The notes below the pieces were generated by a model, which saw nothing but the letters and a program-made list of their open reading frames with translations, made no database searches and was not told where the DNA came from. This document shows positions 8,501 to 39,912 of a DNA stretch of 53,924 bases, one piece after another; position 1 is the stretch's first letter; every line of letters starts with the position of its first letter. The DNA lies in the NCBI GenBank assembly GCA_903826205.1, contig CAIKDP010000413.1:1-53924 (forward strand). Direction: 5' to 3'. A program made the position numbers and the translations under genes. The DNA comes from Akkermansiaceae bacterium. GTDB taxonomy: Bacteria > Verrucomicrobiota > Verrucomicrobiia > Verrucomicrobiales > Akkermansiaceae.

Positions 8501-11500
8501 ATCGGGGCCACCACGATCACCCTGAGCGTGCCGTTTGGAACGGCGGTGGCCGCGCTCACGCCCTACTACACGGTTTCCGCAATGGCCGTGCCGGACGCGC
8601 TCTATCCATCCGGCAGCATGCGCAACTTCACAACCCCTCAAACTTATACCATCAAAGACCCGAGCGGTGCTTCCAAAATCTATACCGTGACGGTCACGGT
8701 CGCGGCGCCCAGCACGGCCTGTGACATTCTCGCCTGTAGCTTCACGGGCCTTGGAACGGCCACGATTTCCGGCAACTCCGTCGTCCTGACGGTGCCGCCG
8801 AGCCAGGCAGTGACCGCCCTGACCCCCGCCTTCACGCTGTCGCCGCTGGCATCGATCAGTCCGGCCTCCGGGGTCGCGCAGAATTTCACCGATCCGATCG
8901 TCTACCGGGTCACCGCCCAGAATGGCACCACATATAAGGATTACACGGTGTCGGTGTTGTCCTATCTGAAATGGTCCTACTCGGCATCGTTGTATATTCT
9001 AACCACTCCGGAGGGGGCCAATATTGCCGCCGGCGCCACGGAAACCAACTTCCCGCTGCTGGTGCGGCTCAATTCCAGCAACTTCAACTTCGGTCAGGCC
9101 CAGTCCGACGGGCGCGACATCCGCTTCGCCACGGTGGCGGGCGCGATCCTGCCCTATCAGATCGAGCAATGGGACGCGGCCGCGGGCGCCGCCAGCATCT
9201 GGGTGAAAATCCCCAGCATTGCCGGCAATGCCCGCCAGGAAATCAGGATGTATTGGGGGCAATCCGGCGTGGTCAGTGAATCGAGCGGCGCCAATGTCTT
9301 CAACGCTGCCAATGGCTTTGCCTGCGTGATGCACATGAATGAATCCCTCACGGATGAACTCGGTGCGGTGCTCCCCACCAATGTCGGCACCACCGTGACC
9401 TCCGGCATGATCGGCAAAGCCCGCAATTTCACCGCAGGCAATGGCGTCGCTTGTGGTAAAGCCATCAGCACGTTCGCGCAGGGCGCGACCGCCCACTCCA
9501 CCGAGGCATGGTTCCGCGCCGATTCGGTCAATACCGAGCTCGTTGACTGGGGTGTCGAGGGCGGCGGCTATAACAAAGTGCAAATCCGCATTGTCAGCCC
9601 GCCGCGCATCTACGTCGATGGCAACTTCGCCAGCGTCACCGGCACCACCACTGTCACCCCGTCACTGTGGCATCACGTCGTGCATACCTATGCCAGCGGG
9701 GTTGCCAAACTCTATGTTGATGGAGCCCTCGACGCCTCCGCCAGCGTCTCCATGAGCATGCCGAATCCGTCGCTGATGTGGATCGGCGGTTGGTATGATA
9801 GCTACAACCATGTGGGTGACATCGACGAGGTGCGGGTGTCCAAGGTCGCGCGCTCGGCAAATTGGATCAAACTGGAATACGAAAACCAAAAGCCCCTGCA
9901 AACATTGGTCGGAGCTCCGGTTCAGGCGGGCGCCACTTTCGCCGTCTCACCCACCAGCGTGACCCTCAACGAAGGGGGTGCAAGCACCCTAACAGGGCAG
10001 GCCGGGGGTGCCCAGAAAGTCTATTGGATCGAACGCAGAAACGGCGTGGATACGGTGATCGCGACCGATGTGTTCGCGCTCAGCGTGGCTGCCGGACGGG
10101 TCGCCGGCAGCCAGTCATATGCGATCCAGTTCAAGGCGGTCTATGCCACGGAAGTCAAAACCGTCGATGTTCCCATCACGGTCAGCGAGTATCTGCCGGA
10201 CCCGGTCTTCACGCTCAACGCTCCCGCCATCTGGGATGGCCGCCAGACTCTGAGCGTGACATCGAACCTAACCAACCTGGCCGACATGCAGGCCAAGGGT
10301 GTCGCCAGCCTCAATTACCATTGGAGCGCCACCGGCGTGGCGGCCACCACACAAACGTCCGCGGGGACCCTGACGTTGCTGCGCAGCCAAGGCAGTGGAC
10401 GGCTCACCGTCACTCTAACCATCGACAACGGCGGTACTTCGGTGAGCCAGACGAAGACGATCATGGTGCAGGAACCTGCCAGTGACGCCTGGGCGCAACG
10501 CTCGCCTGACATCGATGAACAGCCGGTGGACTATCAGTTTATCGCCCGCGATGACACCGGTTATGGCAGGATCCATTACAACGGCACCCAGACGGGTTCT
10601 CCCAGCTCGGTCTTTTTGAAAATCTACACGACCGATACGGGCACGGACGTCCCCTACGGCAGCACGTTGCGCCAAACGCTCGTGGGCACCCGTTATGCCT
10701 TTACTGCAGCCATCGCCGCTGGCAAGGCCACCTACAAGGTCGTCTATGGCACCACCACCGGTTCGACCGATACCATCGTCAGAACCGTGACCGATCTGAT
10801 TTGCGGCGATGCCTATATCATCGAAGGCCAGTCGAATGCCGTGGCCGATGATCCGGGTGCGGAAAGCCCCGTGTTCTCCAACCCTTGGATCCGCACCTAT
10901 ACCACCGCCGCGGGTTGGGGTAATGCCAGCCAGGCGGCCAACTCGTACAAGATCGGCTATTGGGGGGTGGATCTGGCCGCTCGTCTGTTAGCTAACAACA
11001 ACATGCCCGTCTGCATCATCAATGGCGCCGTGGGCGGCACCCGCATCGACCAGCACCAGCCGAATCCGGCGGATCACTACGCGGCGGGCAGCTCGTATTC
11101 CATCTACGCCAACCTGTTGACTGCCGTGGCCGACGCCAAGCTGACCCATGGCATCCGGGGAGTGCTGTGGCACCAGGGCGAGCAGGACCAGGGGTCCGGC
11201 GCACCCACCGGTGATTACGATTACAAGACCTATCAACAATACTTCGTGGACATGTCCGCCGCGTGGAAGCAGGACTTTCCTAACATCCAGCACTATTACA
11301 TCTTCCAGATTTGGCCCAACGCCTGCGGCGATGTCTCGCGCAACGACCAATTGCGGGAGGTTCAGCGGACGTTGCCATGCCTGTTTTCCAACATGCGGAT
11401 CATGAGCAGCGTGGGCATCGTCCCCGGATCGAGTTGCCATTACGTGCCGGATGGCTATCAGAAGTTTGCGGACTTGATGGGGCCGCTGGTGGAACAGGAC

Positions 11501-14500
11501 AATTACGGCTATGCGCCGGCTTCCGTGTTCACCGCGCCGGATTTGAAGCAGGCCTACTACACCACCGCGACGCATAACGAAATCACCCTCGAGTTCGGCC
11601 AAAACATGGCCCCGTGGGTCAGCGCCACGAAAGGCCTGTTCTATCTGGATGGCGTGGCGGGCAAGGTGTCCTCCGGCAGCGTCACCGGCAAGGTGGTCAA
11701 ACTGCAGGTGGCCGCCGCCACCGCGCAAAAGATCACCTATCTGCAAGGCACGTCATGGGACGGCGTGCAGGGTAATCTGCTCTACGGCACCAATGGGGTG
11801 GCCGCCCTAACCTTCGCCGAGGTGGGCATCGCCTTGCCGGCCCCGGCCGGTCTAACTGCAACTTCGCCGGACAGCTCGCGGATGGTTTTGAGTTGGAGCA
11901 GCTCCTCCGGTGCCACCGCTTACAAAGTGAAGCGCGCGCTGACCCAAGGGGGGCCATACACCCAGCTTGGCACCCCGACCAGCGGGGCCTTCACCGATCT
12001 GACGGTTAGCGGCGGCACGACCTATTATTACGTCGTTTCCGCCACCAACGGTGCCGATGAAAGCGCCAATTCCGCGGAAGTCAGCGCGATGGCATCGGTC
12101 AACGGCACGGGGGTGGCGAGCCTCACTGTGGCACGCCATGCCGGCACGGGTGCCGCCACGACCTATGGCGACAGCGTGAGCTTCGATGTGAGCCTGAGCG
12201 GCACCGGCATCCCGACGGGCACGGTTACACTGAAGGATGGTGGCGTTGCCGGTGCCATCATTGGCAGCGCCACTCTGGCCAACGGCACCTGCACGCTCAC
12301 GTCGGACTTGGGCGCGCTCAGCGTCGGCAGCCATAACAACATCGTCGCCGTCTATTCCGGTGATGTCAATTTCGCAGCCGTCACTTCCAGCGCTCTGCCC
12401 ACCCAAACCGTGAGTCAAAAGGCGTTGACCGTTTCCAACACGACGGTCGCCGCCAAGGTTTACGATGGCACCACCGCCGCCACTCTAAGCGGTGCCACCC
12501 TCAGCGGCGTGGTTGGCAGTGACGTGGTCACCCTTGTCAATGCCACCAGTGGCACCTTCAACACCAAAGACGTCGGTGCCGCCAAAGCCGTGGTCACCGC
12601 GATGACGCTTGCCGGCACGGCCGCCGGCAATTACACGCTCATCCAACCGCTGCCAAGCGGGGTCATCACCGCCAAGGCGCTGATCCTCTCAGGCACGACG
12701 ACGGTCACCGGCAAAACCTACGACGGCAGCACCGCCGCCACCCTGGCCGGCAGCACCCTGCAATCCGCGGAAGCGGTAGGCACCGGCAGCACCGGCGACG
12801 GCAAGCCCTACACCGGCGACGCTGTGACTCTCAATCTAACCGGCGCCTTCAACACCAAGAACGTCGGCACCGGCAAGGTGGTGACTTCCACCTCTAGTCT
12901 AACCGGATCCGAAGCGGGCAATTATTCGCTCACCCAACCGACGGGCCTGACGGGCACCATTCTTGCCAGGGTCGTTGCCCTGAGCGGCAACCGGTCCTAT
13001 GACGGCACCACCAGCGTGGCAGTGGCCGGATTGACTGTTTCTAACAAAGTTGTGGGTGATGATCTGACTTTAAACGGCAATGCCAATCTGGCTGGCAAGG
13101 GCACCGGAGCACAGATGATCTACGTTACGCCGATACGCATAGGGAACGCCGCCACCGGCGCCGTCGGCACTGCTGCGGCAAGCTCATTTACGGTCACCGT
13201 GGCTGCACCGACGAGCGGGAACACCCTCATTGCGGTGATCTCGACGCGCAGCTCGAGTGCCAGCGCAGTCACCGGCATCAGTAACAGCGGGACAGCCTTG
13301 GTCTGGACACGCGCGGCACAAAGCACCCCATCAACCAGCACAACGACGGAAATCTGGTATGCGCCGGTTGTTCCCGGCGCGGGGACGGATCTCACGGTTA
13401 ATCTAAATGCTTCCTTGTTCGCAGCCGCAGTGGTTGCCGAATACAGCGGAGTGTTGACTGCCGTACCGGTGGACAGGACTGCCAGCAATAGCAACGGCAA
13501 CAATAGCACATCGGCAACTACCGGCACAACTCTTGCAACCACGCTGGCGAATGAGTTGGCTATTGGCGGTATTGGCCTTCGGTCCAGCAGCTATTCCCTG
13601 GGCACACCTCTTAATTCTTTTGCCTCGGTCAACAACGCACAGTCGGGCAGCAGTACTGCGGGCAGCAACGCCAGAGTCTATTTTCTGGAAAAGGTTCTAA
13701 CTTCCAAAGAAATTACCAGTTCCGGCGGCGCAACCAGTTCCTCGCGCTGGTCCGGCGCGATTGCCACTTTCAAGGCCGGCGTGGCACTGGCCGGCGCGGA
13801 GATCGACAACTACACACTGACGGGTGCCAGCGGCTCGGTGCTGGTCACGCCCAAGGCGCTGAGCGTCACGGCTGACAACCAGGGCAAGACCTATGGTCAG
13901 ACGCTGACGTTTGGAAGCGGCAGCAGCCAATTCACCAGCAGCGGCTTGCAGAATGGGGAAACCATCGGGTCGGTGACGCTGGCTTGCAGTGGCGGCAGCG
14001 CGGCGGCAACCCCGGGGTCCTACACGATCACGCCCAGCACGGCTACGGGCGGCACGTTCAGTGCCAGCAACTACACTCTCAACTATGTGGCCGGCACGCT
14101 CACGGTCAACCCAACAGCTCAGATGATCGCCTTCGACACCTGGGCGCATGCCCCCGCGCAGGGGCTCGCGCCCGGCGGCAACGACGGGCTATTGGATGAC
14201 CCTGATCACGACGGTGTCGCTAATTTGTTAGAGTTCGCATTGGGCGGGCTGCCGCTGGTTGCCACGCGGGAAATCCTGCCCAAACTGGCACAGACCAACG
14301 GGACATGGGTCTTCGAATATGATCGCAGCAATCTGGCGCGGGCGACCACCCAACAAGTGGTGGAATACGGCAGTGATCTAACCGGATGGACCCCGTTGAC
14401 CATTCCTGAAACGAGTGCCGGTGCCGTGACGATCGTTCCCGGCACTGTCTCCGCACATGTGACAGTCACCCTGCCGGTCTTGGGAACCACGGGGTTCGTT

Positions 14501-14521
14501 CGCCTCAAGGTCGGCCAGTGA
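2528..14521 (+). CDS. Giant secreted modular protein: DUF6288-like head, adhesion repeats and a SASA-type esterase domain
   Basis: This 3,997-residue protein starts at ATG 2528, which gives a signal peptide (cleavage near AVQA-YS). Approximate domains: 50-180 PDZ-like DUF6288-type head; 200-870 alpha-helical toroid and HEAT-like repeats; 870-990 PKD-like; 993-1354 four cadherin-like repeats (PDSFTFKVNDG type); 1355-1788 autotransporter-associated beta-strand repeats (LTGANTYSGATRVTAGSL); 1788-1888 Ig-like; 1888-2145 three copies of a DUF5018-like repeat; 2146-2254 DUF2341; 2255-2458 LamG-like; 2651-3005 SASA/SGNH esterase with GQSN (Ser2769), NGAVGGT, WHQGEQD and a late His2971; 3106-3193 fibronectin III; Ig-like; YDG and MBG repeats; 3863-3997 a C-terminal domain shared with two other proteins here. 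The third YDG repeat is split by a foreign-looking insert of about 220 residues. Likely exported and surface-bound, acting on acetylated glycans; the substrate is unknown. No outer-membrane barrel is seen. Confidence 0.85.
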   Translation: MNGKSTRYTALTILLLALPTAVQAYSPMPDLRTAGAIAALKADANSSPVYPESYNLGPTGLRGWIYIDRNNMGNDGLQTARSRQILVTVASTPGSSVLAVDDVILGVKAGSGADLSYPADAFTGDCRKAFGWAIGDAETTANAGVMRVLRWRAGTTSSVVLTLPVNVRGTYATSAPYGCEKSTQILANARNRLVGQLLASPNFLETNYGGAITGLALLGGVAPADPNFSAVQARLQAFARALAPADLVLTGCDTWNWGYIGVFLSEYYLRTVADGSPDNSVLHGINAYTVGLAKGQSKYGTFGHGGAEKHADGSLHGSISWYGPVNSAGIPANVAIVMGKKALQMAITAGAAGAPAVLDPEINPAIERGSNFFGWYVNKGAIPYGEHEPYGDGHASNGKDEMCAVLFGLQDNRPVEAEFFARMSVAGCTGREYGHTGQGFSYLWGAMGANMGGPTAVAEYLKTIRWHLDLERRTDGSFVYDGGEQYGGGTTADGTYLGASAYNDVNPTASYILTYALPLQRLYLTGKDLNAARILTPAKVANAIAASTFKQDCTDQTAYPVSRLIDALREYDPALRSNAASELARRTLTTAEVDSLLALAEGADANARMGACEALGALKVTRALPVLAGRLNKTLEPDPWVRGKASNALKNFGSAASGQLTPMLTAFAANATDPEVIVWDDPVQIANGYLADTLFQALASNTNALVGTARTSLLYPALRAGLKQPDGMARMYLGDFIKNRLSLADVQAVAPSLVAAAAERSPADRMFSDVIRYAALNTLGKYKVEEGIPLCLRVKEQTWHGDDWDPFTLLQNTYRGAAKDALPTLYKWRAHLPQFAADSSTNTGERLANISSRIASTIAAIENDAAPPALTYFKTLSAASAPTSLTLPATTTTLTAAVTDLDAGKTHFVWTKVSGAGNVTFTPGASTDNSTTCSATFDSPGSYQLRVMAVDRSILDSLTWITYSLGYYDFQTYNELLAPVTKDLTVTVGADPNRAPVAQNQSVPTPVNTAVAITLTASDPNGDAMTFAVVTQPTHGTLSGTTPQLYTPADGYTGPDSFTFLANDGKLDSVAATITIDVGAAGNRRPVALNQYLTTAEDTAKTLALTGIDADGNPLTYEIVTGPAHGTLSGTPPSLTYTPAANYPGGNATGADSFTFTVRDASLTSATATVSLTVTPVNDPPLAQAQNVSVSVNTANPVTLTGVDVEGYALSYTLATNPGHGTLSGTAPNLTYRPAANYHGADSFTFKVTDSEGVASATATVAITVINDPPVANPQVLELQPNIGNAVTLTGSDNCNDALTYSVVTQPVHGQLSGAAPNLTYTPTPNYSGPDSFTFKVNDGTYDSPVAAVSLNVVGWLTWTNVAPGTWSTGANWLGGVAPAAGGSTNGLLVFNTGPYAGTSTHNLTGTFSLGRLSFGSALPSMSLGGNPLAFNVNSSSQPQMIQNSAGAITVSNNLTIISGTTVSGSGSGSLTLAGIISGTGSLTKTCSGNLMLSGVNTYSGGTTVSSGAFTLGNKNGFGTGVVTLAGGVAFETSGFEGNGAGGAWPNPVVLSGGMVTVDVSFGAKDIWTNTEISGPGGIVVTGGGRSQGLTLQGNNTFQGGLTLGTPGSADGCNVQLFNVNSLGTGTLRSELMSTDYGSGGLRIQADLSAGVANPIYLVSDARLVVNTSPDGTARAVKFTGPVTGGGSLVKTGTGTLTLTGANTYSGATRVTAGSLACASAFALGGGTLEITSGASVQLNFTGTRRVAALTLGGTAQAATGTYGSTNSGATYQSSYFAGAGTVTVGAAFAVTTTALALTGGTAQSMAGNSLTFTASVANGNAPSGSVAFYAGTTLLGTVTLDPVTFQASFTTTNLASGSNTITARYAGDPANDPSVSTPLTIQVTNPADIQSFTVPGMLSATLSNTSVSVIVPYATAVTALAPSYTLSPGATCDKVSGGPTTYDFTSPVTYSVKSADLATTKAYSVTVTKAAASTAKDITSFVFPGLPTPTIGATTITLSVPFGTAVAALTPYYTVSAMAVPDALYPSGSMRNFTTPQTYTIKDPSGASKIYTVTVTVAAPSTACDILACSFTGLGTATISGNSVVLTVPPSQAVTALTPAFTLSPLASISPASGVAQNFTDPIVYRVTAQNGTTYKDYTVSVLSYLKWSYSASLYILTTPEGANIAAGATETNFPLLVRLNSSNFNFGQAQSDGRDIRFATVAGAILPYQIEQWDAAAGAASIWVKIPSIAGNARQEIRMYWGQSGVVSESSGANVFNAANGFACVMHMNESLTDELGAVLPTNVGTTVTSGMIGKARNFTAGNGVACGKAISTFAQGATAHSTEAWFRADSVNTELVDWGVEGGGYNKVQIRIVSPPRIYVDGNFASVTGTTTVTPSLWHHVVHTYASGVAKLYVDGALDASASVSMSMPNPSLMWIGGWYDSYNHVGDIDEVRVSKVARSANWIKLEYENQKPLQTLVGAPVQAGATFAVSPTSVTLNEGGASTLTGQAGGAQKVYWIERRNGVDTVIATDVFALSVAAGRVAGSQSYAIQFKAVYATEVKTVDVPITVSEYLPDPVFTLNAPAIWDGRQTLSVTSNLTNLADMQAKGVASLNYHWSATGVAATTQTSAGTLTLLRSQGSGRLTVTLTIDNGGTSVSQTKTIMVQEPASDAWAQRSPDIDEQPVDYQFIARDDTGYGRIHYNGTQTGSPSSVFLKIYTTDTGTDVPYGSTLRQTLVGTRYAFTAAIAAGKATYKVVYGTTTGSTDTIVRTVTDLICGDAYIIEGQSNAVADDPGAESPVFSNPWIRTYTTAAGWGNASQAANSYKIGYWGVDLAARLLANNNMPVCIINGAVGGTRIDQHQPNPADHYAAGSSYSIYANLLTAVADAKLTHGIRGVLWHQGEQDQGSGAPTGDYDYKTYQQYFVDMSAAWKQDFPNIQHYYIFQIWPNACGDVSRNDQLREVQRTLPCLFSNMRIMSSVGIVPGSSCHYVPDGYQKFADLMGPLVEQDNYGYAPASVFTAPDLKQAYYTTATHNEITLEFGQNMAPWVSATKGLFYLDGVAGKVSSGSVTGKVVKLQVAAATAQKITYLQGTSWDGVQGNLLYGTNGVAALTFAEVGIALPAPAGLTATSPDSSRMVLSWSSSSGATAYKVKRALTQGGPYTQLGTPTSGAFTDLTVSGGTTYYYVVSATNGADESANSAEVSAMASVNGTGVASLTVARHAGTGAATTYGDSVSFDVSLSGTGIPTGTVTLKDGGVAGAIIGSATLANGTCTLTSDLGALSVGSHNNIVAVYSGDVNFAAVTSSALPTQTVSQKALTVSNTTVAAKVYDGTTAATLSGATLSGVVGSDVVTLVNATSGTFNTKDVGAAKAVVTAMTLAGTAAGNYTLIQPLPSGVITAKALILSGTTTVTGKTYDGSTAATLAGSTLQSAEAVGTGSTGDGKPYTGDAVTLNLTGAFNTKNVGTGKVVTSTSSLTGSEAGNYSLTQPTGLTGTILARVVALSGNRSYDGTTSVAVAGLTVSNKVVGDDLTLNGNANLAGKGTGAQMIYVTPIRIGNAATGAVGTAAASSFTVTVAAPTSGNTLIAVISTRSSSASAVTGISNSGTALVWTRAAQSTPSTSTTTEIWYAPVVPGAGTDLTVNLNASLFAAAVVAEYSGVLTAVPVDRTASNSNGNNSTSATTGTTLATTLANELAIGGIGLRSSSYSLGTPLNSFASVNNAQSGSSTAGSNARVYFLEKVLTSKEITSSGGATSSSRWSGAIATFKAGVALAGAEIDNYTLTGASGSVLVTPKALSVTADNQGKTYGQTLTFGSGSSQFTSSGLQNGETIGSVTLACSGGSAAATPGSYTITPSTATGGTFSASNYTLNYVAGTLTVNPTAQMIAFDTWAHAPAQGLAPGGNDGLLDDPDHDGVANLLEFALGGLPLVATREILPKLAQTNGTWVFEYDRSNLARATTQQVVEYGSDLTGWTPLTIPETSAGAVTIVPGTVSAHVTVTLPVLGTTGFVRLKVGQ

Positions 14522-20898: not shown

Positions 20899-23800
20899 AT
20901 GGAATCCCCGACAAAACTCACCTACGGCTCTTACGAGGTGCTCCAGAACCCCGACGGCACTCCCTGCGTTCTCGGACAGGGCAGCTTCGGCGTCACCTAC
21001 AAGGCCCGGCATGTTTTGTTAGGCAGGGTCAACGCGCTCAAGGTGATCCGCGAGGAATTGCTCAACCGCGGCAGCAAGGAGGACCAGGAGGAAACGCAGC
21101 GGTTTCTGGGCGAGGCGCGCGCGGTGGGCCGCTTGCACCATCCCGGGATTGCGATGGTGCACGACTGCGCGCTGGACAACGGGGTTTTCTACTACGCGAT
21201 GGAGTATTGCGACGGTGGCACGCTGCATGCCTGGTGCGAAGACCACGGCCCCATGCCATGGCCCGAAGTGCGGGCGCTGGCGCTGCAGATTGCCGCCTCG
21301 CTGGATTACGCCCATGCCAACGGCTTTCTGCACCGCGACCTCAAGCCGGCCAACATCATGCTCAATGGTGAGGGCAAGGCGCGGCAAGCCAAGCTCATTG
21401 ATTTCGGGCTGGCCCAAAAAATCGACAGTGACAGCGATTCGTCGTCGGCGACGGTGCGCAAGGACGAGGATAATTTCCGTGGCAACTTTGCCACGGCCAG
21501 TCCTGAGCAAATCCTGGAAAAGCCGCTCGATGCGCGCAGCGATCTGTTTTCCTTTGGCGTGACGCTGTGGTGGTTGTTGCTCGGCAAAAACCCGTTTGGC
21601 GAGATGAAGCGTGCGCCCTTGATCGCCGACCGCGTGGGGCCCTCATCGTATGCGTCGGCGTTGCCGGGTGGGCTTGACCCCGAAGCCCAATGCCTGCTTG
21701 AAGGATTGCTTGAAAAGGATGCGCAACGGCGCATTGCTACGGCCCACGAGGTGGTCGAGCGACTCAGCGCCGCCGCCACCCTGCCACTTCCCGCCCCGGT
21801 CACCGCCAGCCTCGCGGTGGCACTGGAGCCCTTGCCGGCACCCGCTGATCTTGAGGACGGCTATGCGATTGGCAGTGGCTTGACCACCGCAGCCCAAGCC
21901 AAACTCTACAGCGGTGAGGATTTGGCGACCCGGGAACCGGTCGTCGTGGTCATTCCTGACGCCTCGCTCGAGGCGGACGCCCGCGGCGGCATGCGCGTGG
22001 CCGCCAGCCGCAAGCTGGACTTTGGCGCTTATGCGTTTCGTGCTTGGTGTGTCTCGGGGGGGGACGACGTGTTTGTCATTTCCAAACCGGCGGGTTGCAG
22101 TCTGCTGGCCATATTGCGCAAATTCGGCCCTGCCCGGTTTGCTGACACGCTTGCCTTGCTGGCGCATTTGGCGCGCTGTTTTGATGCGAGCCAGGCGTGG
22201 ACCAGTTTTGGCATCCACGTGGATCCAGGTGAAATCCTGGTGGGCACGCGCGACGGGTGCGCTGACCTCGAGCACTTTCGGGCGTGGTCCGACCTCGATC
22301 CGCAATCCGTGCGGTGTCTGCCGTTTTTCACCGCCGGTGCGGACCACGGCAACTCCAGCGAGGCCACGCTATCGTCTTCGGCGCGGGAGTTTCCGCCGCT
22401 GGCTCAATTTGCCGCGCTGGTGTACCGCGTCCTTGCCGGCAGCGCTGTCCGCTATGCCGCCTTTTTCACCACCGGTGGCTATGTGATGGCTTCCGGGTTG
22501 TCGGAAGACGGTAATGCCCTGCTCGCTGAAACACTCTGCGACCCGGAAAGCCAGCCGTCCGCTTGCCGCCTCATCCAATTGCTCGCCGGTTTGGAATCGC
22601 TCCCCGTTGCCGAGCTTACGCCGCTGGTCAATCCGCCAAGTGCCAGGGATATCGCGCAGGGCAAGCACGTGGCCTTGGCGTCTGCTACCGCCACTCCACC
22701 CAAGGAGGTGCCCCGCAGCCCGCAGCCAAAGGCCGCCCCGCCGGCCGCGGCGGACCCTGCGGCGTCGGTCACCGCCAGGGCCGCCGCACAGGAACGCCAG
22801 CTTGCGATGGCCAAACTCGCCGCCGAAGAGGAGGCGCGACAGGATGCGGCAAACGCCCAGCGCAAGCAGGAGGAGGTCAAACGCCAAGCCAGCGAGGCCG
22901 CCGCGCGCCACCAAACCACCGCCAAGGAAACCACCGCCAAGGAAACCACCGCCAAGGAAACCACCGCCAAGGAAGCCACCGCCAAGGAAGCCACCGCCAA
23001 GGAAGCCACCGCCAAGGAAACCACCGCCAAGCCGGAGCCGAGTGCGCGGCAGGGTGTCGATGAGCGCAGGGTGCCGCCTTCGTTGCCGTCTGCGGCCCCC
23101 GCCAAGGCTGTCCCGTCGGCGCCTCCCGCGCAGGGAGGGTTCCGGTCCCGGGGCAAGGTGATTGCCATCGTGGGTGCCGGCTGCGTCCTGGTCACCCTCC
23201 TCACCGCCCTGGTCATCAGGGGACGCGGGAAAACCCATCCGCAGGCCAAGGTGCCAGTGGTGGAGTCACGGCCAACGGAGGAACCGGCGCGCCCGCCTGT
23301 TGATGTCAAACCCGACAACGACGCCCAGCTCGTTGCCAACGAAAGCCAGCCCGCTGCCAAGGTCACGTTGCCCGCAACCACTGATCCGTTGTCCACCATC
23401 AAGGTGCCAGACGATGTGAAAACCCTCGTGGAAGCAGTCAAACGCTGCAAGGAGGGTGGCACGATCGAGATCGCCGGAGGGACCTATGCCGAGGCGCTCG
23501 AGTTGAAAAAATCCATATCCTTGGTGGCATCGCCCGCCGCCGTGTTGGATGGCCATGACCTCCGCTCCAATCTCATCGTCGCCCGTGGCGCGATTCAGGT
23601 GACCTTGCGCAACATTCAATTCAAAAACACGCAGGAAGAGGCCAAGGAGACCATTGATTCCTCACCCGCTTTGGTGCTAATCACCGACGAGGCGAGCGTC
23701 CGCTTCGAGGACTGTGGAATTGAAGGCTCCCTTGGCAATGGCGTGGCCTTGGCGGGCAAGGCCGCCGCCTCGTTTGTCAATTGCTCGCTGAGCAAAAACC

Positions 23801-24492
23801 GGGGCTATGGCATGGACGTCAGCAGCGCCTCCAAGGTGGAGGTGTCACAGAGTAAGATCCGTGACAACGGCCGCAGCGGCATCGCCCTGCGGAATGTCGA
23901 CACGTCGGTCGCCCTGGGCAGCGGTACCGAAGTGGAATCTAACAACAGCAACGGGGTCGAGGTCGGCTACGGAGCCGAGCTCAAATGCAAAGGCGTGATC
24001 CTCCGCGGCAATCAGAAGGTGGGGCTCACCGTGGATGGCAGCAACAGCCGGGCCCGGCTGGAAAGCGCCTGCGTGATTTCGGCCAACCGCAAATACGGCA
24101 TTGGCGTGCTCAATGCGGGCAGGGTGGTTCTGTCCGAGAGTACCGTCGAAGACAATAGCGAGGGCGGCCTCTACGCCAAAACCGGGGCGCAGGTGGAAAT
24201 TCTCTCCTGTCATTTCCTCGCCAATGGCGCGCTAGGCGCCAGTTTGATCGACAAACCCAGCAAGCTGAGCATAGCCAAGACGGAGTTCAAATCCCACTCC
24301 TCGCTGGCCACCGCTTTCGAGCAAGGCAGCGGCATCGTGACCGAGTGCACCTTCCTCAACAATGACACCGCCATCTATTTCGGCCAGGGCGCCAGCGGGT
24401 CGGCCTCCGGCAACCGCAGTCACCTCGGGCCGCTTGATGACATCAAAGACGCCTCGGTCACGGACCAAAGCGGTGAAGTGATCCGCAAGTAG
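20899..24492 (+). CDS. Transmembrane Ser/Thr protein kinase with degenerate second kinase domain and C-terminal beta-helix
   Basis: A 1,197-residue protein. Residues 10-290 are a Hanks-type kinase: GQGSFG loop, Lys48 (ALKVI), HRDLKPANIML (Asp147), DFG (Asp168), ATASPEQ activation segment and SDLFSFGVTLWWLLLG. Residues 318-573 look like a second, degenerate kinase fold: IGSGL, VVVVIP where VAVK should lie (no Lys), HVDPGEILV (His440, Asp442) where HRDxxxxN should lie, and no DFG. Residues 610-740 are an Ala/Lys/Glu-rich linker with a TAKE-type 5-residue repeat. Residues 754-776 form one membrane helix followed by RGRGK. Residues 835-1197 repeat as a right-handed beta-helix. By topology the kinase is cytoplasmic and the helix extracytoplasmic, suggesting ligand sensing, perhaps of glycans. 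The start is ATG 20899. It is followed closely by an envelope operon. Confidence 0.88.
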   Translation: MESPTKLTYGSYEVLQNPDGTPCVLGQGSFGVTYKARHVLLGRVNALKVIREELLNRGSKEDQEETQRFLGEARAVGRLHHPGIAMVHDCALDNGVFYYAMEYCDGGTLHAWCEDHGPMPWPEVRALALQIAASLDYAHANGFLHRDLKPANIMLNGEGKARQAKLIDFGLAQKIDSDSDSSSATVRKDEDNFRGNFATASPEQILEKPLDARSDLFSFGVTLWWLLLGKNPFGEMKRAPLIADRVGPSSYASALPGGLDPEAQCLLEGLLEKDAQRRIATAHEVVERLSAAATLPLPAPVTASLAVALEPLPAPADLEDGYAIGSGLTTAAQAKLYSGEDLATREPVVVVIPDASLEADARGGMRVAASRKLDFGAYAFRAWCVSGGDDVFVISKPAGCSLLAILRKFGPARFADTLALLAHLARCFDASQAWTSFGIHVDPGEILVGTRDGCADLEHFRAWSDLDPQSVRCLPFFTAGADHGNSSEATLSSSAREFPPLAQFAALVYRVLAGSAVRYAAFFTTGGYVMASGLSEDGNALLAETLCDPESQPSACRLIQLLAGLESLPVAELTPLVNPPSARDIAQGKHVALASATATPPKEVPRSPQPKAAPPAAADPAASVTARAAAQERQLAMAKLAAEEEARQDAANAQRKQEEVKRQASEAAARHQTTAKETTAKETTAKETTAKEATAKEATAKEATAKETTAKPEPSARQGVDERRVPPSLPSAAPAKAVPSAPPAQGGFRSRGKVIAIVGAGCVLVTLLTALVIRGRGKTHPQAKVPVVESRPTEEPARPPVDVKPDNDAQLVANESQPAAKVTLPATTDPLSTIKVPDDVKTLVEAVKRCKEGGTIEIAGGTYAEALELKKSISLVASPAAVLDGHDLRSNLIVARGAIQVTLRNIQFKNTQEEAKETIDSSPALVLITDEASVRFEDCGIEGSLGNGVALAGKAAASFVNCSLSKNRGYGMDVSSASKVEVSQSKIRDNGRSGIALRNVDTSVALGSGTEVESNNSNGVEVGYGAELKCKGVILRGNQKVGLTVDGSNSRARLESACVISANRKYGIGVLNAGRVVLSESTVEDNSEGGLYAKTGAQVEILSCHFLANGALGASLIDKPSKLSIAKTEFKSHSSLATAFEQGSGIVTECTFLNNDTAIYFGQGASGSASGNRSHLGPLDDIKDASVTDQSGEVIRK
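22915..23032. repeat. 15-bp tandem repeat coding TAKE(T/A) in the kinase linker
   Basis: About seven and a half copies of accgccaaggaaacc, with a gcc variant in copies 4-6, encode Thr-Ala-Lys-Glu-Thr/Ala. The unit is a multiple of three, so slippage changes linker length in frame. It lies between the kinase modules and the membrane helix. Confidence 0.92.
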
Positions 24493-24577: not shown

Positions 24578-25222
24578 ATGACCACAGCACTCAATCCATT
24601 CGTCCGCTACGGCAAACACTTCGCCATCTTCACCGCCATCACCATGGGGGCCACCCAATGCGCCGGCACCTCGGACGGCCGCTTGGCACAAGGCCAAGGC
24701 ACCGCCATCGGCGCGGGCGCCGGAGCGCTCATCGGGGCGGCCTTTGGCGGCCGGCAAGGGGCGCTCATCGGAGCCGCCATTGGTGGCGCAAGCGGCTTTG
24801 CCTATGGCTCGCACATCGCCAACAAGAAGGCCCAATACAAATCCACCGAGGACTGGCTCGATGCCTGCATTGCCCAAGCCAATTCGAAGCGTAGGGAAGC
24901 GGTCTCATACAACCATCAGCTCGAGACCAAGCTCGCCAACCTCCAGCGTGAGGTGAGGGTGGCTGCCGCCACGAAGGACAGGGCCAAACTGGCCACCTTG
25001 AAGCGTGAGATCAGCACCGAGCGGGCCGCCGCCCAAAAGCAAGCGACGGTCTTCAGCAAGGAAGCCGAGATGCAGCACTCCGCCATCAAACAGGCCGGCA
25101 GTCAGGGCGGTTCACGTCTCAGTTCACTGCGCGAGAGCACCAATGGGATTGAGACCCAGGTCTCGGTGATGAACAAGAATGTGCAGCGCTATGCCGCCCT
25201 CGAATCCCAAACCGACGTTTGA
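24578..25222 (+). CDS. Glycine-zipper envelope protein
   Basis: A 214-residue protein; the ATG at 24578 (MTTALNPFVRYG) is preferred because it gives a signal-like N-terminus ending near QCAG. A Cys is present, but the preceding residues (GATQC) do not make a standard lipobox. Residues 40-80 form a glycine zipper (GAGAGALIGAAFGGRQGALIGAAIGGASG), a feature of outer-membrane-associated proteins that insert or oligomerise. Residues 85-214 are charged and predicted helical, probably a coiled coil (LETKLANLQREV, LATLKREISTERAAAQKQ). It leads a three-gene set with the lipoprotein and peptidase that follow. The role is unknown; an envelope-spanning or membrane-organising function is inferred. Confidence 0.75.
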   Translation: MTTALNPFVRYGKHFAIFTAITMGATQCAGTSDGRLAQGQGTAIGAGAGALIGAAFGGRQGALIGAAIGGASGFAYGSHIANKKAQYKSTEDWLDACIAQANSKRREAVSYNHQLETKLANLQREVRVAAATKDRAKLATLKREISTERAAAQKQATVFSKEAEMQHSAIKQAGSQGGSRLSSLRESTNGIETQVSVMNKNVQRYAALESQTDV

Positions 25223-25252: not shown

Positions 25253-25492
25253 ATGAACGCCCCCCTTATTCGCGTTGTCACGCTGGCCTTTGCCGCCACT
25301 GCCACCTTGCTCGTTACCGGTTGTGAAACCACCGGCGACCCCAGCCAAGGCGGCATTTTCTGGAGTGAGAGAAAAGCCCAGGGCCGCCTGGCCGAACGCC
25401 AGAATACCCTCGAGCACGTCGAACGCCAAACCCAAAAAGCCGAGCGCAAGTCGGATCAGACCCAGAAGAAGATCGACGAGTTGCAGCAATGA
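25253..25492 (+). CDS. Small lipoprotein with coiled-coil tail
   Basis: A 79-residue protein with a clear lipoprotein signal: MNAPLIRVVTLAFAATATLL then VTGC, so Cys24 would be lipidated. The mature part starts ETTGDPSQGG and ends in a charged heptad-like helix (RQTQKAERKSDQTQKKIDELQQ region). It lies 30 bp after the glycine-zipper gene and overlaps the next gene by ATGA, so the three are almost certainly one operon. Small lipoproteins like this often tether or adapt envelope complexes; that role is an inference. Confidence 0.8.
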   Translation: MNAPLIRVVTLAFAATATLLVTGCETTGDPSQGGIFWSERKAQGRLAERQNTLEHVERQTQKAERKSDQTQKKIDELQQ

Positions 25493-26697
25493 CGGGCCTG
25501 ATCAACCGGCAGGGTGTGGCCTGCCTCGCGGGGATGTTGGCGTGCGTTTCGACCCTGGTGGCCGAACCCGCGCCGGCCTCCGCCGACGCGGCGGCCGATC
25601 GCCTGTGGAAGAGTTTCAACGAGAAATACACCCAGTACTCGCTCAGCCCGCTGGATGCGCAGACGGTCGACGAAAAGGCACGTGCGGCCCTGATTCGGAC
25701 GGCGGGGCCCAAGTTCCGTGCATGGCTGCCTTCGCGCGCGCCGACATTTCCCGAATTGGCCAACGCCATCATGGCCGAGGACAGTTCCATCCCCAAATTC
25801 GACCGGATTGAGCAAGCCCTTACCGCCTTGCTCCCCCAAATCGATTCCTACGGCCACTACAAATCCGCGGCTGACATCGCGCAATGGCTTGAGGCGATGC
25901 GCCAGACTCCCGGCAGCGTGCACATGACCCTCGATCAGGCGGCAGACGGACGCGTCCTCTGCTACCCCATGCCCGACGGACCGGCCGAACAGGGCGGCGT
26001 CAATGCCGGGGCCCAGCTTCTGGCAGTCGACAACCGGACGGCGCAAGGCAAGTCCATTGACTCCTTGCGGCTCGCTTTTGTGGGGCCGCCTAACAGCCAG
26101 ATCATTCTTAAAATCAAGCAACCTCAAGGCAAAGTCGAGGAGTTGACCCTCACCCGCACCGATAAGGAGGCGCCCATAGTCACCACCACCAAGACGCCCA
26201 TGGGGGTGACCCTCCGGGTTCGCAAATTCGACAAGGACACCGTTCTCACGATCCAACACCAGCTCGAAGCCTACCCGCAACCCGGCCGGCTCACCTTGGA
26301 TTTGCGCGGCAACCCGGGCGGCTTGCGCGAAGAGGCGCTGATGACCGCGGCGTTGTTTCTTCCTGAAGGCACGCCGATCGGAAAATTCACAACCCGCAAG
26401 GGGGTGCAGACGGCCACGGATCGGGACGGGGTGGCCGTGAACCCCTCCTCCATCCAGATTCTTCAGGATGGACGCACGGCCAGCGCGGCGGAATATCTCA
26501 TCGCCACCCTCAAGGAAGGCCTGCCGGACAAGGTGACCTTGTTTGGCAAAAAAACCTACGGCAAGAGCCACTCGACCGTGCGCGTCATGCTCGAAGGCGG
26601 CGGAGAGTTGGCAGTGACGGAAGCCTTGCTTGCGACCGCCTCCGGCCGCTCATGGGACAAAACGGGAATTGAGCCCGACCGCGCCGACAAGGAGTGA
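25489..26697 (+). CDS. S41 (C-terminal processing)-type peptidase with PDZ-like domain
   Basis: A 402-residue protein whose start overlaps the lipoprotein stop (ATGA). The N-terminal signal peptide (MTGLINRQGVACLAGMLACV) is cleaved near LVAEP. Residues 20-140 are helical. Residues 145-225 resemble a PDZ domain (AEQGGVNAGAQLLAVDNR). Residues 235-400 are S41-like: DLRGNPGG, then QDGRTASAAEYLIATLK, which matches the family's Ser-bearing motif, and KKTYGKSHS, which supplies the family's Lys. Such peptidases trim C-termini of envelope proteins. The catalytic pair looks intact, although the Ser motif is a little divergent from the usual SASAsE. Operon context suggests it processes or is regulated by the two small envelope proteins before it (inference). 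Confidence 0.82.
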   Translation: MTGLINRQGVACLAGMLACVSTLVAEPAPASADAAADRLWKSFNEKYTQYSLSPLDAQTVDEKARAALIRTAGPKFRAWLPSRAPTFPELANAIMAEDSSIPKFDRIEQALTALLPQIDSYGHYKSAADIAQWLEAMRQTPGSVHMTLDQAADGRVLCYPMPDGPAEQGGVNAGAQLLAVDNRTAQGKSIDSLRLAFVGPPNSQIILKIKQPQGKVEELTLTRTDKEAPIVTTTKTPMGVTLRVRKFDKDTVLTIQHQLEAYPQPGRLTLDLRGNPGGLREEALMTAALFLPEGTPIGKFTTRKGVQTATDRDGVAVNPSSIQILQDGRTASAAEYLIATLKEGLPDKVTLFGKKTYGKSHSTVRVMLEGGGELAVTEALLATASGRSWDKTGIEPDRADKE

Positions 26698-27707: not shown

Positions 27708-30700
27708 ATGCAGAGTCTTTCGAAACGCTGGCAAACTTGGAAGACGGGACCCTCTCGCGAGCGGGACGGCGAAGCGCCGCTGCGGGCGGAGTTGTTCAGC
27801 ATCGAACAACTCAAGCGCCATGCCCGCAACCTGGCCGCCAGTCATCAGGTGGCACCCCGGCACAAGGTCAACCGCCTGTTGGCCTGTCTGGATGCCAACG
27901 AGCGGGCGCTGCTGGCTTTCAATCGCTCGACGCGCCTCGTCAACCACAACCGGCGCATCACCCCTGCGTCCGAATGGCTGCTGGACAACTTTTACCTGAT
28001 TGAACAGCACATCCAGATGGCCAGGCTGCATCTGCCGCGTGGCTACAGCCGTGAGTTGCCACGCCTCTTGACTGGCCCGTCCGCCGGCTTTCCGCGCGTC
28101 TACGATATCGTGCTCGAATTGGTCTCGCACGTGGATGCCCAAGTGGATGAAGGTGCCATGAGCGCCTTCATCGCGGCCTATCAGACGGTGGAGTCGCTCA
28201 AGCTCGGTGAATTGTGGGCCGTGCCCATCATGTTGCGGCTGGCCCTGATAGAGAACCTGCAGCGCATCACCAGTCGCCTGACCCGCGCCCGCCAGGATCG
28301 CGACCTTGCGGATCAGTGGCTGGACCGCTTGCAAGACATGGCGGAAAGCGACCCGTCCCAGATCATTGTGGTGGTGGCGGAAATGGCCAAGGCCAATATT
28401 GAGCTGACCAGTTCGTTCGTGGCGGAATTTTGTCAGCGTTTGTCGCGGCACAGTTCGGTGTTGTATCTGGCCCGGACTTGGCTCGAACACCGCCTGCTGG
28501 AACAAGGCTTGTCAATCGAACGCCTGATCGATTTGGAAAGTCAAAGCCAGGCGGCCAATCAGGTGTCCGTCAGTCATAGCATTGCCAGTCTGCGTTTCCT
28601 GGGGGCCACGGACTGGAAGGAGTTTGTGGAGACCGTCAGTCAGGTCGAGGAAACGTTGCGCGCCGATCCGGCCGACTCATACCGGCAAATGGACTTTCCC
28701 ACCCGTGACCGCTATCGCCACGCGGTCGAGACCATCGCCCGCCACAGCCAGCATCCGGAAATGACGGTGGCCCAAATGGCCGTCCAACTGGCAGAGGAAG
28801 CGGCCCGGGAGAAGGGGGCCGAGGACCGCACGGCGCATATCGGTTACTACCTGATCGACAAAGGGCATGGCCTGTTGGTGGGCAAGACGAAGGTCAGTTG
28901 GCCTTGGCGCACATTCATCGAGCGCGGCATCCAGCGCTTTCCCTTGCCTTATTATGCGGGCGGGATTGGATTGTTGACCCTGTTAGTCACGCTGGGCTTC
29001 ATGCAGCAGGCACAGGTACTCGATGTGGCGGGTTGGAAACGGGTGGTTTTGACGCTGGTGTTCCTGCTGTGTGCCAGCCAACTGGCCGTGGCTTTGATGA
29101 ACTGGCTATCCACGCTGCTGGTGCCCCCGCGCTTGCTGCCGCGGCTGGATTTTTCCGGCGGCCTGACGCCGGAGTGCCGCACCATGGTGGTGGTGCCCAC
29201 CCTGCTGACGAGCGAGGCCGGCATTGAACACCTGCTCGAAACCTTGGAGATTCATTATCTGGCAAATCGGGACACGCACCTGCACTTTGCCTTGCTGACG
29301 GATTTTCGCGATGCGCAGCTGGAACAGCTCCCGGACGATGAGGCCTTGCTCCAGCAAGTGCGGGCCGGCGTCGAAAATCTCAACCGCAAATACGCGGCCG
29401 CCGGACAAGATTTGTTTTATCTGTTTCACCGCCCGCGCCGTTGGAATGCCGGTGAAGGCTTGTGGATGGGATACGAACGCAAGCGGGGCAAACTCGCCGA
29501 ATTCAACGCGCTGCTGCGCGGGGGCTCCAGCGATTGTTTTTCCGTGATCATCGGGCAGACCGGGATCCTTCCCATGGTCAAGTATGTCATCACGCTGGAC
29601 ACCGACACCCAACTGCCACGCGAAGCCGCCCGGCGGCTCGTGGGCACGATGGCCCATCCGTTGAACCGTCCGGTGTTTGATGCGGAGCGCGGGATCGTCA
29701 CGGAGGGTTACGGCATCCTGCAGCCACGGGTCGGGGTGAGCCTGCCGAGCTCCCGGCGCTCCTGGTTTGTGCGGCTGTTTGCCTGCGACGCGGGCATCGA
29801 TCCCTACACGCGGGCGGTGTCCGATGTCTATCAGGACCTGTTCCGGGAAGGGTCCTTTATCGGCAAGGGAATCTACGATGTGGACGCCTTCCAACGTGCC
29901 ATGGACGGCCGCTTTCCGGAAAACACCGTGCTCAGCCATGATTTGTTAGAGGCGTGTCATGCCCGCTCCGCCCTGATCAGCGACGTGGAATTCTATGAAG
30001 CCTATCCATCCCGCTACAAGGTGGACGTGGACCGGCGCCACCGTTGGATGCGCGGCGACTGGCAGATCACGCAATGGCTGTTGCCGCGGGTGCCGGGGGC
30101 CGATCCACCGAGCCTGGCCAATCCACTCTCCGGCCTGTCATTGTGGAAGATTTTCGACAATCTGCGGCGCAGTTTGGTGCCCGTGGCGTTGCTGTTATTC
30201 CTGATAGGGACATGGGTGCTGGCACCCGCACTGACGGATCTGGGCCTGCTGCTGGTGCTCGTCATCATCACGCTGCCCGGCATGCTCTCGATGTCGGTCA
30301 ATGTGCTGCGCAAGGCGGACGATCTGCCGTGGCGCATGCATCTGTTGGAATGCAGTGAGGTATGTGCCCGGCAGCTCGGTCTGATTTTTCTCACCCTGGT
30401 GTTTCTGCCCTATGACGCCTTTCTCAGTCTGGACGCCATCGGCAGGACCTTGTGGCGCTTGTTAGTGACCCGCAAGCGCCTGCTCCAATGGCAGACGTCT
30501 AGTGATGTGGAGCGGACTCATCTGGCGGACCTCCGCAGTTATTGCACGACGATGTGGATTGCGCCGGTGGTGGCATTGGCAGGTGGTCTGTTTGTTGCCA
30601 TCATGCAACCGGCCCATCTGGGGTGGCTGCTGCCATTGCTGGTTGGCTGGTTGGTCGCGCCGTGGATCGCGTGGCGGCTCAGCCAGTCGATCGAACCCGC

Positions 30701-33700
30701 CACCCTGGATTTGGCGGCCGAGCAAGTGACGTTTTTGCGCCGCACGGCCCGCAAGACCTGGTATTTTTTCGAGACCTTTGTCAACGCGGAGGAAAATTGG
30801 CTGCCGCCCGACAATTTCCAGGAAGTTCCCGTCCCGTTGATCGCCTCCCGCACCTCGCCCACCAATATGGGTCTGGCGCTGCTGGCCAATCTGGCGGCCC
30901 GGGATTTCGGCTACCTTTCGGTGGGTGGCTTGCTGCGGCGCACTCAAGACGCCCTCGCCACCATGCACCGGTTGGAGCGCTACCACGGGCACTTCTATAA
31001 TTGGTATGACACCCGCACGCTCCAACCGCTCCTTCCGCATTATATATCAAGTGTGGACAGCGGCAATCTGGCCGGTCATTTGCTCACGCTCGGTTCCGGC
31101 CTGCGGGAGTTGGCCGATGTGGAAATTTTGCCGGCCGGGGTGTTTGGCGGGTTGCTTGACACGCTGCGCATGCTGCAGGAGTTGGATCGCGAAAATTCCG
31201 CGCTGGCTGGTCTCGAGGCGGACATGGAACAGTCCCCGGCCACTTTGCGCGCGGCGTTTTGTTTGTTAGAAAAGGTGCTCGCACAGGCCACCTCGCTGGC
31301 CGCCGCATTGCAGAATGCGGACGATGAACTCAAGGGCTGGGCGCAAGCGCTGCAGCAAAATTGCGCGGACCAATTGGATGACTTGCGCTGGCTCGCACCG
31401 TGGCTGGCTTTGCCATACCCCGCGCACCACCCGAAGTTTGGGGAGCAATCCGCCACCCCGACCGCGCCGAATGGCGGGCCCGTCCCGGTCGCGGCGACCC
31501 GGCTCGAGGAATTGCTGTCCAGCCTCGACCAAGTTCCCACGTTGCGCGAGCTTGCCGGGATCGAACAGAAGTTGCTCCCGCTGCTGGATGAGGTCATGCG
31601 GGAGGGGGTGTCGGGATCTAACAATTCAAGACCCAAGCCGCCTCCCATCCTCATGGCTCTTGGGCGCAGCCTGAGCGAGGCCAGCGCTCGTGCCAACCAG
31701 CGCCTGCTCGCCTTGGAATCCTGTGCCGCACAATCCGATGCGTTGGCGGCGATGGATTTCACCTGCCTCTTTGATCAGGCCCGGGGTTTGTTTGCCATCG
31801 GCTTCAACGTCAGTGACCGGCGCAGTGACAGCAGTTTCTACGACCTGTTGGCTTCGGAGGCGCGCTTGTGCAGTTATGTGGCCATTGCCTTGGGGCAGGT
31901 TCCGCAGGACCACTGGTTCGCAATGGGGCGCTTGTTGGTGGCCGCGCGCGGGGCCCCGATTCTCATTTCCTGGAGCGGTTCGATGTTTGAATACCTGATG
32001 CCGCTGCTGGTCATGCCAAGCTATGAGAACACCTTGCTCGACCACACCTGCAAAGCCGCCGTGCTCCAACAAATCAAATACGGCAAATCGCGTGGCGTGC
32101 CATGGGGGATTTCCGAGTCCGGTTACAACCGGACCGACCTCCAGCTCAATTACCAATACCGAGCGTTCGGGGTGCCGGGTCTGGGTTTGAAACGCGGCCT
32201 GCGCGAGGATCTGGTGATTGCGCCGTATGCCACGACCATGGCGCTGATGGTGGCGCCGCTGGCCGCGTGTGCCAACCTGCAACGTCTGGCGCAGGACGGG
32301 CGCGAGGGTAGCTTCGGATTCTACGAGGCGGTGGACTACACGCCGACCCGTCTGCCGCCGGACAAGACCAGCGTCACGGTCCGTTCCTACATGTGTCATC
32401 ATCAGGGGATGAGTCTGTTAGCACTGTCCAATCTGCTGTTGGACTATCCGATGCAGCGGCGCTTCATGGCCTGTCCCATGCTCAAAGCGGCCGACCTGCT
32501 CTTGCAGGAACGGGTGCTCAGGACCGCGGTGAGCACGGTCGCCTATGATCTGGTGCCGGAATTGTCACACACTCTTGAAAGCGAAGATGTGATGCGCGTG
32601 TTCACCAATCCCACCTCCTCGGTGCCGGAGGTGCATCTGTTGTCTAACGGGCGCTATCATGTCGCCATCAGCAGTGCCGGTGGTGGCTACAGTCGTTGGC
32701 TGGATCTGGCGCTCACCCGCTGGCGTGAGGATGCCACGCGCGATCATTGGGGCACCTTCATCTATGTGCGCGATATGGCCACCGGGGGATTTTTTTCCAC
32801 GGCCTATCAGCCGACACTGCAAGCGACTGACGGCTATGAAGCCATCTTCACGCAGGCGCGTGCGGAGTTCCGGCAGCGGCATCTCGATCTCGACCTGCAC
32901 ACTGAGATTTGCGTGTCACCGGAGGATGACGTGGAGTTGCGGCGCATCACCCTCACCAATCGCAGTGCGGTGACGCGCGTCATTGAGTTGACCAGTTACG
33001 CGGAAGTGGTGTTGACGGCACCGGCGGCGGACGCGGCCCATCCGGCATTCAGCAACCTTTTCGTGCAAACGGAATTTGTCCGCCAGGCCTCGGCGGTGCT
33101 TTGCACCCGGCGCGCCCGCTCGGTGGAAGAAAGCCCGCCATGGCTGGTGCACCTGATGGTGGGAAAAAATGCCGAGCAAGGCGAACTCTCCTGTGAAACC
33201 GACCGGGCCCGCTTCGTCGGGCGCTGCGGTAACCTGATTCATCCCGCCGCCATGCGCACCCTTGCGCCCTTGTCCGATACCGTGGGCTCCGTGCTCGATC
33301 CCATCATCTCACTGCGCCGCACCCTCACTGTGCCCGCCCACTCCTCTGTCACCCTCGACTTGATTTGGGGCGTGGCGGAAAGCCGCCAGGCCGCGCTGGC
33401 TTATGCCGAAAAATATCAAAGCTCGCGCATGGCGGACCGTGCCTTCGAGTTGGCATGGACCCATGGCCAGGTGATGTTGCATCACCTCAACGCCACGGAG
33501 GCTGAGGTGCAACTCTATGATCGCCTGGCGGGTGCCCTGATCTACGCCAATCCCGCCCGCCGCGCCCATTCTAACATTCTACTCGCCAACCGCCGCGGCC
33601 AGAGCGGACTTTGGAGTCAAGGCATTTCCGGTGATGTCCCGATCCTTCTGCTGCATATCAGCGATGCGGAAAAAATCGAGATTGTGAAGCAGTTGATTCA

Positions 33701-39753: not shown

Positions 39754-39896
39754 GCGCCTGCAAAACCTATCCGAAATACAAACCCTCCGGCGTGGTGTGG
39801 CTCTTTCGCCCCAACGGGGCACCATACCTCAGCCCAGGGCAACGCGCCCAGGGCAACGCCCTGGGTCCGACATCCCACAACGACACCCAGCCCTGA
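39750..39896 (+). pseudogene. Duplicated hsdS start running into a repeat element
   Basis: The ATG overlaps the upstream stop (ATGA), like the other junctions in this operon. The first 18 codons ([18 protein letters not shown]) nearly copy the real hsdS start (MSAYQPYPKYKPSGVEWL at 39913). The frame then enters a hairpin element (cccaggg-caacg-ccctggg, about 39832-39865) and stops at 39894. The 48-residue product would have no known function. I read it as the original hsdS start, displaced when a repeat arrived. It may still be translated and feed ribosomes to hsdS. Confidence 0.7.
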
Positions 39897-39905: not shown

Positions 39906-39912
39906 CTAACCG

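Follow-up and report, generated by a model that had tools for sequence, protein, structure and literature searches.

A receptor-like bacterial Ser/Thr kinase with a predicted pseudokinase between its catalytic domain and membrane helix, and its family in Verrucomicrobiales

The window analysed here is the whole of contig CAIKDP010000413.1 (53,924 nucleotides; assembly GCA_903826205.1) of an Akkermansiaceae bacterium, and the gene under study encodes a 1197-residue protein with two kinase-related domains, a membrane helix and a beta-helix (Table 1). With moderate confidence, this protein is interpreted as a receptor-like Ser/Thr kinase of the membrane whose active kinase domain is separated from the membrane helix by a kinase-derived pseudokinase that is retained by selection and would serve as a relay or control module. 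The first domain carries the features of a Hanks-type Ser/Thr kinase, namely the glycine loop, the VAIK lysine, HRD, DFG and an APE-like motif. Its landmarks are GQGSFG at 26-31, K48, E72, HRDLKPAN at 145-152, DFG at 168-170, SPE at 201-203 and R278. Together with the PF00069 match these residues bear out the first-pass annotation, which had placed a complete Hanks kinase at residues 10-290, and the repeat linker, single membrane helix and beta-helix that it described after the second domain are likewise present. Within NCBIfam, the first domain is matched best by a PASTA-kinase model, which covers residues 25-293 only and scores far below its cut-off. PASTA repeats are absent from the Pfam matches of the whole protein up to an expectation (E) value of 1, among which beta-helix models are listed.

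Descent and degeneration of the second domain

Judged by sequence comparison, the second domain is a putative pseudokinase by descent, the window's own copy being linked to kinases through a chain of relatives and not by a direct match. The homology rests on family profiles because single-sequence searches and a hidden Markov model (HMM) of the first domains miss the window's second domain. Profile A2, built from six second domains, matched PknE best in the PDB (E 9.1e-9), followed by PknA and StkP, and the best 60 of its 264 matches were all kinases. Profile A4 consists of five rows (the window, its own-genome copy C209, two from G044 and one from G135) chosen so that rows closer to kinases could not sway the result; it gave eight PDB matches up to E 10, every one a kinase, the best at 0.0042. 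Profile A8, comprising the second domains of 21 relatives, some of them less degenerate, reached PknE at 3.4e-18, with kinases occupying all of the best 60 of 1054 matches, and three of its alignments to PDB entries span the glycine loop through the catalytic loop. Left out of A8 were L091, L092, L093 and L096, which are divergent, cut or frameshifted, and L097, a duplicate of L004.

Bridging relatives provide the intermediate links. Six of 10 relatives yielded a Pkinase or PK_Tyr_Ser-Thr match when the second domain was scanned in isolation, with E values no higher than 0.0012 and all below the curated cut-offs of Pfam: L082 (1.5e-5), L094, two of L081, L080 and L083. One of the six A2 members matched Pkinase, at 7e-4, and the pseudokinase-only proteins L134 and L136 did so at 2.8e-6 and 3.8e-5. 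An HMM built from the family's kinase domains ranked 8 of the 21 second domains above every one of the 1071 decoys, which were shuffled or reversed sequences, and above the 19 C-terminal controls. The earlier description of residues 318-573 as a second, degenerate kinase copy is thus upheld by the family profiles and the bridging relatives. The domain has probably been overlooked in annotation, since neither Pfam nor NCBIfam reports it when the window's protein is scanned.

The second domain has lost at least one of the VAIK, HRD and DFG residues, the mark by which a pseudokinase is recognised, and with these catalytic losses it is predicted to lack phosphotransfer. HRD occurs at the aligned place in none of the 21 A8 sequences. 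The beta3 lysine is kept in two of them (both from G442), is arginine in one and is lost in 19 of 21; the window reads VVVVIP, and its lack of lysine had been recognised correctly in the first-pass annotation. The same annotation took IGSGL for the glycine loop, a placement that does not hold: in our reading of the profile-to-PDB alignments, the equivalent is LTTAAQAKLY (328-337), which contains no glycine. Its substitution of HVDPGEILV for HRDxxxxN was right about the loss of HRD and wrong in register, 'HVD' lying off 'HRD'; within GIHVDPGEILV (438-448), His440 occupies the position of the catalytic Asp. The reported absence of DFG is correct for the metal-binding place, judged in the window's sequence only, and incorrect for the string itself, which occurs at 374-376 and, in the window's sequence and model, precedes beta4, away from that place. 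The segment quoted as an F-helix-like LAALVYRVLAG actually reads LAQFAALVYRVLAG (501-514). These errors of register leave the claim of a degenerate kinase unweakened. Four positions, D429, P475, G514 and N539, are invariant across the 21 sequences of A8.

Family, constraint and the FHA-domain ABC transporter

Three second-domain matches are present in the window's own genome, on C413 (the window), C209 (60% identical) and C51. One genome-contig relative was found, in Verrucomicrobiaceae bacterium E54 (L077; order Verrucomicrobiales), and no relative in the viral contigs searched. A count of the family by A2 matches in the phylum (98/288) was rejected, many weak matches spanning the extent of an ordinary kinase; L026, read among these weak matches, is a stand-alone kinase that has HCD and DLG. 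Counting was instead based on A9, a 65-position profile of the C-terminal signature. This signature occurs in 13 of 387 phylum genomes and in 26 of 288 genomes of the order, where it reaches four families; outside the order, the phylum sample contained one strong genome (G442) and five weak ones (E 1.2e-4 to 8.7e-4). The pseudokinase module is patchy and found mostly in one bacterial order.

An N-terminal Pkinase match was found in 22 of 23 proteins (22 relatives scanned whole and the window), the exception, L093, being cut by a contig end. The kinase-pseudokinase cassette carries differing C-terminal domains across relatives: among the same 23, Pfam names a beta-helix in 5, Sel1 in 4, FGE-sulfatase in 3, TPR in 1 and no domain in 10, including L080, which stops after its second domain. 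A hydrophobic helix was detected in 21 of the 26 sequences scanned, among which L097 repeats L004 and L095 is truncated. From the 24 order matches outside A9, 20 were taken (left out: G595:C17, G617:C334, G027 and G048, already fetched), and in 17 of these 20 signature loci the kinase lies N-terminal to the pseudokinase. Sixteen of the 17 have HRDxKxxN, and in L139 the kinase precedes a masked stretch. The search of related genomes for the same domain order, suggested in the first-pass annotation, was therefore positive, and the layout belongs to a family and is not unique to the window's gene.

Other arrangements were also encountered. L125 (49-2910) contains two kinase domains followed by a pseudokinase in one frame, and L091 (454-5379) has two pseudokinase-profile matches in one protein. 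The pseudokinase-only L134 and L136, two genes on one G651 contig, each have a hydrophobic helix.

Purifying selection constrains the second domain about as strongly as the kinase. The ratio of nonsynonymous to synonymous substitution rates (dN/dS), calculated by the Nei-Gojobori method with our own script, was 0.154 for the second domain and 0.156 for the kinase in the window-C209 pair, with corresponding values of 0.136 and 0.109 for window-G044, 0.090 and 0.089 for G165-G117, and 0.137 and 0.102 for the G044 pair; dS exceeded 1 in three of the four pairs, G165-G117 alone being unsaturated. Linkers and C-termini were less constrained wherever a ratio was obtainable. Kinase and pseudokinase distances were correlated (Mantel r 0.81, 0 of 5000 permutations, n=36), and the nearest neighbour was identical for the two domains in 24 of 36 proteins. 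This set combined 15 of the 20 new loci (without L128, L134, L136, L139 and L143) with 21 earlier proteins, L077 replacing L095.

What is new here is that genomes with the pseudokinase signature usually carry an FHA-domain ABC transporter. In the order sample, the transporter (E <=1e-60) occurs in 24 of 26 A9-signature genomes versus 13 of 262 others (Fisher P 1.6e-23), two draws of 288 being taken as the same genomes and two candidates per genome being scored. In the family sample it was found in 4 of 60 genomes, all four with the tandem, and G067 has the second domain without the transporter. The kinase-pseudokinase gene adjoins the transporter gene in E54 (L077), G044 (L078) and G442 (L081); the E54 transporter gene is identical to that of G135, a genome of the window's family. 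Among 31 genomes searched for linkage, 28 had both genes, and in 16 of the 28 these lie at most 6 kb apart versus 0.15 expected by random placement, with distances running from match or open reading frame (ORF) edges and the limit set after the distances were seen. The FHA motif (GR, S..H, NG) was recognised in 9 of 10 transporters, four by regular expression and five by eye, and is absent from the printed stretch of L156; the near-threshold transporter matches G027, G617 and G026 begin only within the FHA domain. A Thr-rich linker was considered as an FHA docking site and dropped, the linker of L095 having no such repeat. G178, from the window's genus and one of the 13, has its FHA-ABC match at G178:C4:500046-501743 with an internal stop, and no A9 match is listed for it.

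Proposed mechanism, known systems and alternatives

In the favoured reading, the C-terminal beta-helix would be extracytoplasmic and sense something in the envelope. The membrane helix would relay a change there to the juxtamembrane pseudokinase; this domain may hold, release or pair the catalytic domain, and the kinase would then phosphorylate itself or its partners. The FHA-domain ABC transporter is a likely reader in many genomes, its activity possibly tuned by phosphorylation as PknF modulates Rv1747. A more specific reading, held only tentatively, makes the family a set of pseudokinase-gated receptor kinases, similar to JAKs and plant tandems, with exchangeable envelope sensors and a kinase that controls an FHA-domain ABC exporter.

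Comparable systems share parts of this layout. JAK and TYK proteins also combine a pseudokinase and a kinase (JH2-JH1) in one polypeptide, and the N-lobe matches listed include TYK2 JH2 entries; here, however, the order is reversed, with the kinase first, and the protein is bacterial, of Ser/Thr type, and has its own membrane helix and beta-helix. PknB and StkP resemble the window's protein in their N-terminal Hanks kinase, one membrane helix and C-terminal domain, whereas the window's protein has no PASTA match and has a pseudokinase in the juxtamembrane place. Plant tandem kinase-pseudokinases, represented by WTK1/Yr15, form a family in the available portion of PMC6170490 and thus share the tandem layout as a family trait; unlike them, members of the bacterial family include a membrane helix, and their C-terminal domains are exchangeable. 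PknF and the ABC exporter Rv1747 constitute a two-gene operon in which PknF modulates the transporter, according to the accessible part of PMC3908365, and Rv1747 bears FHA domains in that of PMC5549992. The likeness lies in the pairing of a kinase gene with an FHA-ABC transporter gene, whereas the kinase here carries a pseudokinase, and linkage within 6 kb extends to 16 of 28 genomes and not to the window's own.

For bacterial pseudokinases, the available portion of a 2025 review (PMC12599244) lists the families ActPs1-3, GLW, DLHK, CP1 and DYD, with MviN in ActPs3; it gives ActPs2, ActPs3 and GLW a membrane region C-terminal to the domain, reports the catalytic motifs of ActPs3 as lost, and, in that portion, describes none of the families as fused to an active kinase, in which they differ from the present one. 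The word pseudokinase is not used in the accessible part of a planctomycete kinase survey (PMC11032199). Among the best-ranked open-access literature matches, a scope that puts most subscription papers and bioRxiv preprints outside it, no bacterial kinase-pseudokinase tandem was described, in agreement with the first-pass annotation, whose author model knew of no bacterial system with this layout.

Several observations weigh against the favoured reading. Taken alone, the window's second domain has no Pfam match up to E 1 (residues 316-584) and no phmmer match in the PDB up to E 10 (residues 308-584), and its -1.4 bits against the HMM of the family's kinase domains fall inside the decoy range. 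No kinase match was obtained for 4 of the 10 isolated second domains (L081:1776-2705, L087, L090 and L078), and hhalign comparisons of second- with first-domain alignments are weak (probability 26% and 5%). AlphaFold modelled the second domain alone poorly, with a predicted local distance difference test (pLDDT) score of 40.7, and the model displays beta1-beta2-beta3-alphaC-beta4-beta5 in kinase order for the N-lobe only, the remainder being unresolved. The best 50 Foldseek matches of this model are all protein kinases, the best at E 1.2e-3 and none at <=0.001. The best VIA-align hit among 1000 Foldseek-picked chains is PknA, with Z 7.8 and 3.1 Å over 91 residues of the N-lobe, and a Z below 8 can reflect a common arrangement by the tool's own warning. 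As modelled, only the N-lobe of the second domain looks kinase-like, a kinase-type C-lobe being putative. The C-lobe failure is no evidence against a kinase fold because the tandem model left even the certain kinase domain unfolded (mean pLDDT 33.6); both models were computed from an alignment of two rows, the window and L077.

Further points of this kind come from the relatives and the transporter. L091 and L092 have a Pkinase match but no HRD[LIV]K string, the first domain of L128 is degenerate too, and in L134 (2414-4990) and L136 (2293-6573) an N-terminal pseudokinase has no preceding kinase in the frames read. The co-occurrence statistic ignores phylogeny, and 12 of the 28 genomes have no linkage within 6 kb; several of these carry the two genes on separate contigs of broken assemblies, and G588, a single contig, is plainly unlinked. 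In the window's genome the transporter lies at C29:9721-12624, away from all three tandem genes and on a contig without a PF00069 match, and its gene is not paired with the kinase gene of C413. Gating of the kinase by the pseudokinase is a plausible prediction.

A role as scaffold or docking platform accounts for the findings almost as well as gating. The pseudokinase would then dimerise the receptor or dock substrates or phospho-readers without gating catalysis, an account that is possible, if on the unlikely side. The LSE.GN family signature and the pseudokinase-only L134 and L136 suit such a binding role, and in the available portion of PMC12599244 the EssB/YukC pseudokinase serves scaffolding, recruitment and homodimerisation and that of MviN shows a crystal dimer interface; by itself, however, scaffolding leaves the usual position after the kinase (17/20) unexplained, though a dedicated scaffold would explain it. 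It is improbable that the domain instead gained another enzymatic or ligand-binding activity on the kinase fold, as SelO or SidJ did: the same portion of PMC12599244 offers bacterial precedents for repurposing and the invariant positions of A8 would suit it, but the window has lost the glycine loop, beta3 lysine, HRD and DFG places, with little adenosine triphosphate site left to repurpose.

The two readings that deny the domain a selected kinase-like role fare worse. A fold of another kind, resembling kinases by chance or through the neighbouring kinase, would accommodate the missing Pfam and phmmer matches of the window's domain alone, the poor model and the weak hhalign result; it is nonetheless highly improbable, as profiles made of second domains only find kinases in the PDB matches shown and isolated domains of relatives match Pkinase. 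That a duplicated kinase left the domain behind as a decaying remnant is scarcely credible and largely contradicted, dN/dS far below 1, correlated divergence and a signature in four families of the order standing against the uneven loss of catalytic residues (two G442 members keep the beta3 lysine and 19/21 do not) and a dN/dS that slightly exceeds that of the kinase in two of the four pairs. Because relatives keep the dead half under selection, the favoured reading of a selected pseudokinase beside an active-looking kinase points to the use, in some bacteria as well, of the pairing of kinase and pseudokinase that is familiar from animals and plants. A family with different stages of catalytic decay, the beta3 lysine being kept or lost, and with single-module variants would allow the control of a live kinase by a dead one to be studied, and the transporter link offers a concrete measurable output.

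Gene neighbourhood and further observations

The gene order in G151 is FHA-ABC transporter, kinase, glycine-zipper protein and peptidase, and because of this order the window (Table 1) looks like the same locus minus the transporter. No Pfam match was found for 7 of 10 neighbour genes in one set and 3 of 6 in another.

Table 1. Features of the kinase-pseudokinase gene and its downstream neighbours in the window
Feature	Coordinates	Strand	Basis
Kinase-pseudokinase-membrane helix-beta-helix receptor-like protein, 1197 residues	20899..24492	+	Single ORF, ATG start
Hanks Ser/Thr kinase domain, active-looking, residues 25-286	20971..21756	+	PF00069 E 3.1e-44; own-genome PF00069 scan gives 20971-21756
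Predicted pseudokinase domain, residues ~318-573	21850..22617	+	Family profiles against PDB; landmarks in 21 relatives
C-terminal pseudokinase signature (FAALVYRVLAG ... LSEDGNALLAE)	22396..22590	+	Profile A9
TTAKE/ATAKE repeat linker, residues 673-707	22915..23019	+	Read from sequence
Single hydrophobic (membrane) helix, residues 755-773	23161..23217	+	Kyte-Doolittle scan
Right-handed beta-helix, sensor-like, residues ~833-1197	23395..24489	+	Beta_helix PF13229 E 3.5e-25
Glycine-zipper protein, directly downstream of kinase gene	24578..25222	+	Relatives beside beta-helix kinase, G151 (55%) and G117 (48%)
S41/PDZ (Prc-like) peptidase, downstream	25489..26697	+	Relatives near beta-helix kinase: G151 (55%), 2 kb past it in G165 (47%)

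Elsewhere in the window, positions 1805-14521 encode a 4238-residue protein in which DUF6288 is combined with several domains of Ig/cadherin-like type and one resembling a sialic-acid esterase. A 2919-residue protein at 27708-36467 has GH94, glucoamylase and glycosyltransferase domains and presumably resembles a cyclic beta-glucan synthase. Genes for Type I restriction-modification (HsdM, HsdS) occupy positions 36548-42432, accompanied by a YhcG-type nuclease and an M78 peptidase. The window's genome also encodes L160 (contig C108, 736-4377), in which a kinase is joined to a stretch that by eye is STAND-like NTPase, to a hydrophobic stretch and to a beta-helix sharing 76% identity with that of the window; a single genome thus has this sensor on a different signalling frame as well.

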